This document shows, in pieces, positions 58,924 through 60,446 of a DNA stretch of 64,000 nt (position 1 is the stretch's first letter; each line of letters opens with the position of its first letter). The stretch is from NCBI RefSeq assembly GCF_009766065.1, contig NZ_LMUE01000012.1:310001-374000 (forward strand), given 5' to 3'. The notes under the pieces were generated by a model that saw only the letters and a program-made list of their open reading frames with translations, was not told the origin of the DNA and made no database searches. Source of the stretch: Dyella sp. S184 (lineage in GTDB: Bacteria; Pseudomonadota; Gammaproteobacteria; Xanthomonadales; Rhodanobacteraceae). Made by a program: the position numbers and the translations under genes.

Positions 58924-59820
58924 CTAGTCGAGCTTGATGCCAGCCAGTCGCTGCAACGCCTCGGCGTACTTCGCGGCGGTAGCCGCGATGACGTTGTCCG
59001 GAATCACCGGGCCTGGCGCGGTCTTGTTCCAGTCCTGTGTCTCCAGATAATCACGCACGAACTGCTTGTCGTAGCTGGGTGGGCTGATGCCGACGCGGTA
59101 TTCGTCGGCGGGCCAGAAGCGCGAGGAATCCGGCGTCAGCATCTCGTCCATCACGTACAGCTTGCCGCTGGCGTCGGTGCCGAATTCGAACTTGGTGTCA
59201 GCGATGATGATGCCGCGTTCGGCCGCATAGGCCGCCGCCCACTGGTAGATCGCCAGCGTGGCGTCGCGCACCTTGCCGGCCAGTTCGGCGCCGACCGTAT
59301 CAACCACCACGTCGTAGCTGACGTTCTCGTCGTGGTCGCCGACGGCGGCCTTGGTCGACGGGGTGAAGATCGGTGCGGGCAACTGCTGCGCCTGCTGCAG
59401 GCCGGCGGGCAATGCGATGCCGCACAGCGAGCCAGTGGTGCGGTAATCCTTCCAGCCCGAGCCGATCAGGTAACCGCGGGCGATCGCTTCCACTGGGACC
59501 GGCTTCAGCCGCCGCGTCACCACCGCGCGCTTTTCGTACAGAGCCAGGTCGGTGCCGGGCGGCAATACCTCGGCCAGCGGCACGTCGAGCAGATGGTTCG
59601 GCAGCAGGTGCGCGGTCTTGCCGAACCAGAAATTGGAGATCTGCGTGAGCATCTCGCCCTTGCCCGGGATCGGGTTGGGCAGCACCACGTCGAACGCCGA
59701 CAGCCGGTCGGTGGCGACCATCAGCAGCCGATCGTCGGACAACGCGTAGACATCGCGCACCTTGCCGCGATGGAGCAGTTCCAAGCCGGGCAGATTCGAT
59801 TGCGGCAGGGTGGTGGGCAC
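58924..59820 (-). CDS. purC: Phosphoribosylaminoimidazole-succinocarboxamide synthase
   Basis: 298 residues, the long form found in Xanthomonadales and eukaryotes. It joins aspartate to CAIR in purine synthesis. Marks: [82 protein letters not shown] and [15 protein letters not shown] ([12 protein letters not shown]) is preferred as start because this is the usual N-terminus; an ATG twelve codons upstream is possible. Neither has a strong ribosome binding site. A large inverted repeat lies ~150 nt upstream and could fold in the purC leader. Confidence 0.93.
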
Positions 59821-59967
59821 GACGGGGGTTCCACGGAGGGGGAGGAGAGCGCCCATTCTAGCTGCTGTGGACGATAGGCCGGAAAGTCGCACCCGGCAGG
59901 CCGGATCATCGGGCACTGCTAGAATTGCTGGCCTTTACCCCCCCATGTGTTGCCGATGCGAATCCCA

Positions 59968-60143
59968 GAGCCTGCTCATGATCTGCCAGTGGCCCGCGCC
60001 ACGGCCCGAAGGGTTGAGCCGCTGTGGCCGCCAGGCGGTAGCGCGCGGCTTGACCTGACGGCCAGTCAGGCGCTGCGCCACGCACTACCGCCTGGCGGCC
60101 ACAGCAACTCAACGCGAACCACCGGCAAACCATGAGCAGGCTC
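59968..60143 (-). repeat. 176-nt imperfect inverted repeat with strand-specific pairing
   Basis: Two 67-nt arms (59968-60049 with a 15-nt bulge at 59999-60013, and 60077-60143) can pair. 58 of 67 positions are Watson-Crick. All nine mismatches are transitions that become G-U or U-G pairs if the minus strand is transcribed, and A-C mismatches if the plus strand is. The centre holds a further small hairpin (CCTGAC...GTCAGG, 60054-60070). Minus-strand sense is that of purC, whose start lies 148 nt on. The right arm also includes the start codon and first codons of the cytochrome gene. It could be a purC leader structure, an independent RNA, or a mobile palindromic element. Confidence 0.75.
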
Positions 60144-60446
60144 CTGACTGCGGTGCTGTGCCTGGCCGCCGCCATTCCAGCCCTTGCCCAGAGCCCGGCC
60201 GCGGCCCAGCCAAGCCGGCTGGGCCTGTGCGCGGCCTGCCATGGTGAAACCGGTCACGCCAGCATGCCCGGCGTGCCGAACCTGGCCGGTCAGCAGCTGG
60301 ACTATCTGCGCAGCGCGCTCAGGCACTATCGGGATGGCAGCCGCGACGTGCCGCTGATGCGTGCGGCAATCGGCCCGGTCAGCGATGCCGATCTCGACGC
60401 GCTGGCCCGCTGGTACAGCGCGCAGTCGCCGCAGGCACATCCATGA
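60132..60446 (+). CDS. Small periplasmic c-type cytochrome
   Basis: 104 residues with a signal peptide (RLLTAVLCLAAAIPALAQ). The haem site is LCAACHGETGHASMPGVPNLAGQQLDYL (CxxCH) and the axial methionine is in VPLMRAAIGPVSDADLDALARWYSAQ. This is a class I, c553/c4-half-like cytochrome that carries one electron in the periplasm. The first codons lie in the right arm of the large inverted repeat. Its stop overlaps the djlA start by 4 nt. A TAGAAT box at 59920-59925 could be its -10. Confidence 0.92.
   Translation: MSRLLTAVLCLAAAIPALAQSPAAAQPSRLGLCAACHGETGHASMPGVPNLAGQQLDYLRSALRHYRDGSRDVPLMRAAIGPVSDADLDALARWYSAQSPQAHP

Follow-up and report, generated by a model that had tools for sequence, protein, structure and literature searches.

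An inverted repeat with one-sided mismatches beside purC

The window analysed here is a stretch of 64,000 nucleotides from Dyella sp. S184. Between purC (SAICAR synthetase; minus strand, 58924–59820 with a predicted start) and a plus-strand gene of the cytochrome c family (60132–60446; open reading frame, Pfam PF13442/PF00034) lies a large inverted repeat whose arms depart from complementarity in one sense only. The question raised by this locus is whether such a pattern marks a functional minus-strand RNA, either a purC leader or a separate small RNA as the first-pass annotation had suggested, or has another origin.

The repeat consists of two arm pairs, 60013–60049 with 60077–60113 (37 nt, 89%, four mismatches) and 59968–59998 with 60113–60143 (31 nt, 84%, five mismatches). 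Base 60113 is common to both, giving 67 positions with 58 Watson–Crick pairs and nine mismatches, exactly as first described. The predicted folding energy was −161.2 kcal/mol for the minus strand (z −16) and −126.7 kcal/mol for the plus strand (z −12). None of 200 shuffled sequences matched the real fold on either strand, placing the repeat far beyond chance.

All nine mismatches are A·C on the plus strand and hence G·U in a minus-strand RNA. This observation holds, with two qualifications. First, the true element extends by one further base at either end, and the extra pair 59967/60144 is a tenth A·C. Second, judging from two other genomes (G017 and G021) with a 178-nt copy at the same site (L054 and L055), the nine mismatches are not nine independent recent events. 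Five of them (59993/60118, 59994/60117, 60019/60107, 60020/60106 and 60046/60080) are A·C in all three same-site copies, and 60042/60084 is A·C in two of the three. Only 59981/60130, 59983/60128 and 59988/60123 are A·C in the window and Watson–Crick in both other genomes.

The repeat is a copy of a dispersed family

The feature is an arm-deleted copy of a protein-free repeat family of ∼268 bp and not a unique purC leader. The search for further copies that the first-pass annotation had proposed found three in the window's own genome, and a full copy used as query has matches in 27 of the 40 genomes of the genus. A pattern built on the most conserved part matched at least 118 stretches; the organisms among the 80 matches listed are Rhodanobacter, Dyella, Fulvimonas, Luteimonas and Lysobacter, together with three family-level records (Rhodanobacteraceae, Lysobacteraceae) and one Proteobacteria MAG. 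A covariance model of the conserved core, arm P2 (defined below), matched 54 of the 299 genomes searched within the order, representing 20 of 85 genera and three families, here called f1, f2 and f8. One Fulvimonas genome alone contains 69 forward and 67 reverse matches to the element end. A blastn search with one copy as query found no match in plasmids or phages.

Full copies are 267–268 nt long and contain no transposase gene. Their terminal inverted repeats and large copy number are those of a miniature inverted-repeat transposable element (MITE). Each comprises a stem P1, formed by the terminal repeats, two arms P2 and P3, and a mini-hairpin J between the arms. The window copy (59967–60144, in plus orientation on the window plus strand) is 178 bp long and lacks P2; its ends and inner parts align with the full copies, and the two same-site copies support its limits. 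By repeat search and alignment, the left arm of P1, the left terminal repeat, occupies 59967–59998 (plus), and the right arm, the right terminal repeat, which holds the cytochrome start, occupies 60113–60144 (plus). Alignments place a six-base remnant at 59999–60004 (plus), where full copies have the 96 nt of P2. J (CCC-GAA-GGG, 60005–60013) was identified from the sequence and family counts. P3 (60014–60112), delimited by repeat search, family counts and folding, folds best on the minus strand and ends in an apical hairpin CTGAC/GTCAG (60055–60069), seen in the sequence and in covarying helix pairs.

Several smaller observations concern the limits of the family. Two pairs of end motifs lie close together, 42 bp apart at G004:C20:26840-26881 and ∼160 bp apart at G002:C10:12185-12345, and may be short derivatives, perhaps with one or both arms lost. 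A lone end-like site (L053) was rejected as an element. In three Dyella ASV24 contigs (L108, L144 and L157) the element runs, inside P3, into a common stretch, CTGTCTCTTATACACATCT, which resembles library adapter sequence; the hairpin therefore seems to break assemblies. Two Rfam searches gave no hit at the gathering score and 9 and 2 sub-threshold matches (VA RNA, miRNA precursors and others), which fall on long hairpins and were not accepted. At L008:185-307 (minus) there is a match to the ribosomal S15 leader, with 33 bits against an Rfam gathering score of 39.5.

Full copies fold as a covarying Y

From 181 extracted copies, 140 had accepted, distinct ends; 99 of these were distinct and 262–270 nt long, and the 78 below 93% identity formed our alignment. 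In its coordinates, P1 pairs 1–32 with 237–268, P2 spans 33–128 and is followed by J (CCC-NNN-GGG), and P3 spans 138–236. Full copies fold as a Y, with P1 as the stem and P2 and P3 as the arms. The covariation check proposed for relatives of the window sequence showed that this family fold covaries strongly. When pairs were ranked by corrected mutual information, the top 45 fell without exception inside the fold registers; both sides change in 83 of 108 pairs across the 78 copies, and the covariation score was 0.389 against 0.125 after shuffling and at most 0.065 in slid registers. A plus-strand alternative for P3 (162–168 with 194–200) was dropped, the direct pairs being those that covary.

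P2 contains four tandem G·A/A·G steps, or eight pairs, of which six are identical in all 78 copies and the remaining two in 68 and 74. A further A·G is identical in 76 of the 78. Of the six Watson–Crick pairs between the steps, three vary on both sides. Conservation is higher inside the element than in the inner half of its ends.

The J loop, which lies at the centre of the element, reads GNA in 31 of the 78 copies, and 33 have the reverse complement, TNC. The individual loops also occur as reverse-complement sets (GAA 19/TTC 19, GGA 10/TCC 6 and GCA 2/TGC 8), as if the mini-hairpin flipped.

The two arms favour opposite strands

When mismatches in the 78 copies were counted as G·T or A·C on the plus strand, the three parts of the fold differed. 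P1 had 74 G·T and 68 A·C. P2 had 78 G·T and 23 A·C (42:14 in the stem and 36:9 in the pairs between G·A steps), with a tip that is opposite to the rest of the arm (2:6). P3 had 33 G·T and 391 A·C, with 3:3 in its apical helix. Within P3, six pairs, picked after the counts had been seen, gave A·C : G·T of 279:3, and the remaining pairs gave 112:30. Folding energies agreed: P2 folded better on the plus strand in 73 of 78 copies, P3 on the minus strand in all 78, and P1 was unbiased (40:32 with six ties). RNA and DNA folding parameters favoured the same strands.

The polarity extends to the more distant families. Of 25 loci tried, 3 lacked J, 7 were dropped for poor arms and 15 were counted; agreement was 12/12 and 11/12 usable copies in family f2, and 3/3 and 3/3 in family f8. 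In three of four f8 copies, P2 read on the plus strand resembles P3 read on the minus strand, with scores of 35, 36 and 40; the maxima of 300 simple shuffles were 25, 25 and 30, and the same-strand comparison gave 15, 17 and 14. The likeness is absent from the fourth f8 copy (L313, score 15) and from all six nearer copies, so that an inverted doublet of hairpin units, as in a REPIN, is seen in three of four distant copies and none of six nearer ones. These comparisons suggest that the element arose long ago as an inverted dimer, and that each end-adjacent arm folds on the strand starting at that end.

The window mismatches can be read against this family background. Of the four in P3, two are A·C in most family copies, namely 60042/60084 (element pair 166/208, A·C in 53 of 78) and 60046/60080 (element pair 170/204, 64 of 78), and the other two are common to the three same-site copies. 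Of the five in P1, two are common to the same-site copies and three are new. Because P1 mismatches run in both senses across the family, five of one sense are within chance for a case picked as striking. The first-pass annotation had itself named copies with mismatches of both senses as evidence against its reading, and P1 provides them. Since the window copy lacks P2, its one-sided mismatches amount to the family habit of P3 plus those in P1. A minus-strand preference is supported as a trait of P3 throughout the family; selection for a minus-strand RNA specific to this locus is not supported.

Pairing seems to be renewed between copies

Where copies at the same site could be compared (six independent comparisons, with the repeats L026/L162 and L078/L189 counted once), we found 50 one-sided and 5 double changes. 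Between copies at different sites, 42–43% of changes were double, in pairs of copies that have 6–14 changed pairs and are not independent of one another. Four comparisons, of L009/L085 with L057/L066 (15–18 one-sided and 14–15 double changes), were excluded from the 50:5 count. The flanks of these copies are alike and their stems differ by 14–15 double changes; here one copy has probably been replaced by another at the same site.

As changes at the same site are mostly one-sided, pairing is not visibly kept in place. The one-sided changes were 20 A·C and 11 G·T in P3 and 5:4 in P1, the latter without the window-site copies; in P2 they were 4 A·C and 1 G·T, against the trend of that arm. On these counts, pairing seems to be renewed between copies through mobility and not guarded in place. 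This argues against a host function of the window copy and for a fold needed in spread, and we infer that the fold serves the spread of the element and not the host locus at the window. Either a folded RNA or a single-stranded DNA could be concerned, as both sets of folding parameters favour the same strands.

Ends and target duplications point to an IS5-type partner

The element begins with GAGCCTG and ends with CAGGCTC. Identical triplets flank 31 of 140 copies (shuffled mean 15.6, maximum 22). In the GAGCC subtype, 30 of 124 copies have an identical TNA on both sides (shuffled 15.0, maximum 24), most junctions being without one; in the GGGCC subtype, 11 of 16 have TA on both sides, and shuffling gave similar values (9.7, maximum 12). 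Of 21 copies that have an at least 95% identical copy elsewhere, ten show a matching TNA and three a TA. Target site duplication, a MITE property, thus exceeds shuffling in a minority of junctions. At the window site no duplication is visible, with 3 + 3 nt of flank where empty sites have 6.

Subgroups of the IS5 family generate TA or TNA duplications. An insertion sequence in Fulvimonas (L275) shares 16–17 of its first 18 end bases with the element and has a TGA duplication. Its transposase, in two frames, is assigned to the IS5 family by PF13340, PF01609 and NF033580 (transpos_IS5_3). Ends shared with an autonomous element of the same genome were found in Fulvimonas only. Close relatives of this transposase occur in 7 of 197 family genomes, and one of these (G063) carries 15 copies of the insertion sequence, ten with matching TNA. 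Among the listed genomes with a close transposase, only Fulvimonas (G086) shows element matches; G056, G063 and G069 gave none with the P2 covariance model, and G214, G215 and G225 lie outside the element-match listing. At 1e-30 there was no transposase match in the window's genome or in other element-rich genomes. A helper search found PF01609 matches in 25 of 40 genus genomes, and the best four inverted pairs at each of 30 PF01609 loci included no GAGCCTG-like end.

Ends and TNA duplications shared with an IS5-family insertion sequence make a MITE with IS5-type partners, now mostly partnerless, the best reading of the sequence comparisons. As the two seldom co-occur, the partner itself is only inferred, and an IS5-type transposase would be what moved the element.

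The genes at the 140 junctions, called with a home-made codon model that gets the genes on either side of the window copy wrong, were co-directional in 49 and 31 cases, divergent in 27 and convergent in 20; three junctions lie inside a gene and ten have one side missing. By the same rough calls, 45 of 122 stop codons end within three bases of the element. TAA and TGA fit a TNA target, so that duplication there can leave the stop intact.

The insertion displaced the start of a cytochrome gene

The cytochrome is present in all 40 genus genomes. Of 30 loci fetched, 27 were readable, and 24 of these are empty sites with an ATG-CG/CA... start, typically ccgATGCGAAYCCTACTGATCGCG. In the window, G017 and G021 the element sits after the third or fourth cytochrome codon. 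The distribution is patchy: G007, whose cytochrome is 86% identical, has no element, and G021, at 75%, has one. A dispersed repeat that 24 of 27 relatives lack at this site gives no support to a leader of purC or to a small RNA specific to the locus.

The overlap of the right arm with the cytochrome start is real. The element end supplies an in-frame ATG AGC AGG CTC, changing the N-terminus from MRxLL to MSRLL, and from the reading frames the ATG at 60132–60134 would be the one in use. A putative 59-codon frame (59956–60135, plus) opens at the former start, now displaced, and crosses the element to reach a TGA that overlaps the new ATG (ATGA); it is the same in all three same-site copies. The new start is probably supplied through translational coupling to the old one. 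A leader peptide selected as a protein was rejected, as substitutions per codon position (2/5/3, 7/3/8 and 7/6/5) carry no coding signal. Across the family, rough calls place 20 of 142 gene starts in an element end, nine of them at the position of the window ATG (−13), where 65 of 280 family ends have an ATG. A GGAG-like motif has been lost from the window copy.

Readings of the element

We consider that the feature is a decayed, P2-less copy of a non-autonomous transposon (MITE) with IS5-family-like ends, in origin an inverted dimer, inserted in the start of the cytochrome gene, and put the probability of this reading at about 80%. What has been observed is the repeat family, its covarying Y fold, the opposite polarity of the arms, the IS-shared ends with their TNA duplications and the empty site. 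Points against the reading are the rare co-occurrence of insertion sequence and element, the many junctions without an identical TNA, the lack of a visible duplication at the window site, the patchy occupancy of that site and the conserved inside; against use of the new ATG stand its presence in only 65 of 280 family ends and the lost GGAG-like motif. On this reading, a full element would run from each end inward through a terminal repeat into a hairpin arm, and each arm would fold best on the strand starting at its end, P2 on plus and P3 on minus. After insertion into the first codons of the gene beside purC, the right end would offer the in-frame ATG. Having retained P3 alone, the window copy would carry mismatches that mimic selection for a minus-strand RNA.

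A bolder version, possible but held tentatively, is that the element is mobile in a structure-dependent way. Each strand of the inverted dimer would fold its own 5′ arm, marked in P2 by the G·A steps, and it is this folded strand, as single-stranded DNA or RNA, that the machinery of mobility or some host factor would have to read. The IS5-type ends would then serve for cutting only, and the Y core would act as a further signal that has outlasted repeated changes of end sequence across the order.

A different enzyme could also be involved: a RAYT/HUH transposase might act on the folded single strand, and the TNA flanks would then show no more than a target preference. The inverted dimer of hairpin units and the compensatory changes are as in REPINs, on the description in the consulted parts of PMC3116915. 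Strand-specific arms, invariant G·A steps and the stronger conservation of the inside relative to the inner half of each end would fit as well, but with target duplications exceeding shuffling and ends common with an IS5-family insertion sequence we regard this as unlikely.

Slightly more doubtful still is an origin of the one-sense mismatches in strand-specific mutation, with C turning to T on whichever strand of an arm is exposed and no selection on the fold. In its favour, the six picked pairs of P3 have C on the left and A on the right in 275 of their 282 transition mismatches, as expected from C to T on the minus strand. However, the bias shifts within one 268-bp element, from P1 to P2 to P3, and reverses at the P2 tip, and the invariance of the G·A steps is left unexplained.

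Least probable of all is that a minus-strand RNA is made at this locus with its fold selected in place: the G·U sense of all nine (ten) mismatches, the P3 bias with its weak same-site lean (20:11) and the better minus-strand fold would suit it, but the repeat is dispersed, P1 has both senses, same-site changes are one-sided, the element is retained at this gene in only 3 of 27 loci, no Rfam family reached its gathering score, as a cis-regulatory leader might, and a crude scan of 59750–60250 gave no sigma-70-like promoter or terminator-like site.

Relation to known elements and implications

As far as the cited texts were consulted (PMC10969869, PMC2229807), the type II MITEs of bacteria, such as RUP, Correia/NEMIS and Chunjie, resemble the element in being small, multi-copy and mostly intergenic, without a transposase gene, and in having IS-shared ends, a short target duplication and a stable predicted fold. 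Unlike them as described there, the element is most conserved inside, has two arms of opposite strand preference, is an inverted dimer and is spread through an order. The Fulvimonas insertion sequence is like the element in its end bases and TNA duplication and differs in encoding a transposase within a unit of about 850 bp; beyond the ends no similarity was seen by eye. REPINs, in the consulted parts of their description, likewise replicate as two inverted hairpin units with compensatory changes and have two possible folds, hairpin and clover (PMC3116915). They are RAYT-linked, whereas the element has target duplications, IS5-type ends and a unit of ∼268 bp. The Caulobacter CIR elements, compared by their partial description, also have two long inverted repeats, two arms and a linker, but are ∼110 bp long with GANTC sites (PMC2229807). 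No paper listed by searches of the open-licence literature names this family in its title or abstract opening, and the terms looked for in connection with it were absent from PMC11109978.

MITEs are usually seen as elements with conserved ends and an unconstrained interior, so that such inner conservation is unexpected. Here the best conserved part is the inside, a covarying Y fold with opposite-strand arms whose dimer origin is still visible in distant copies, and such a conserved two-stranded fold is unusual for a MITE family. Should spread depend on the fold, elements linked to IS5 would have a requirement for a folded strand that has so far gone unrecognised. For annotation, mismatches that are all G·U in one strand can mislead, since they may reflect a tendency of a single arm within a mobile family and not a local RNA gene. 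The locus itself shows clearly how, in nature, a mobile element can displace the start of a gene.
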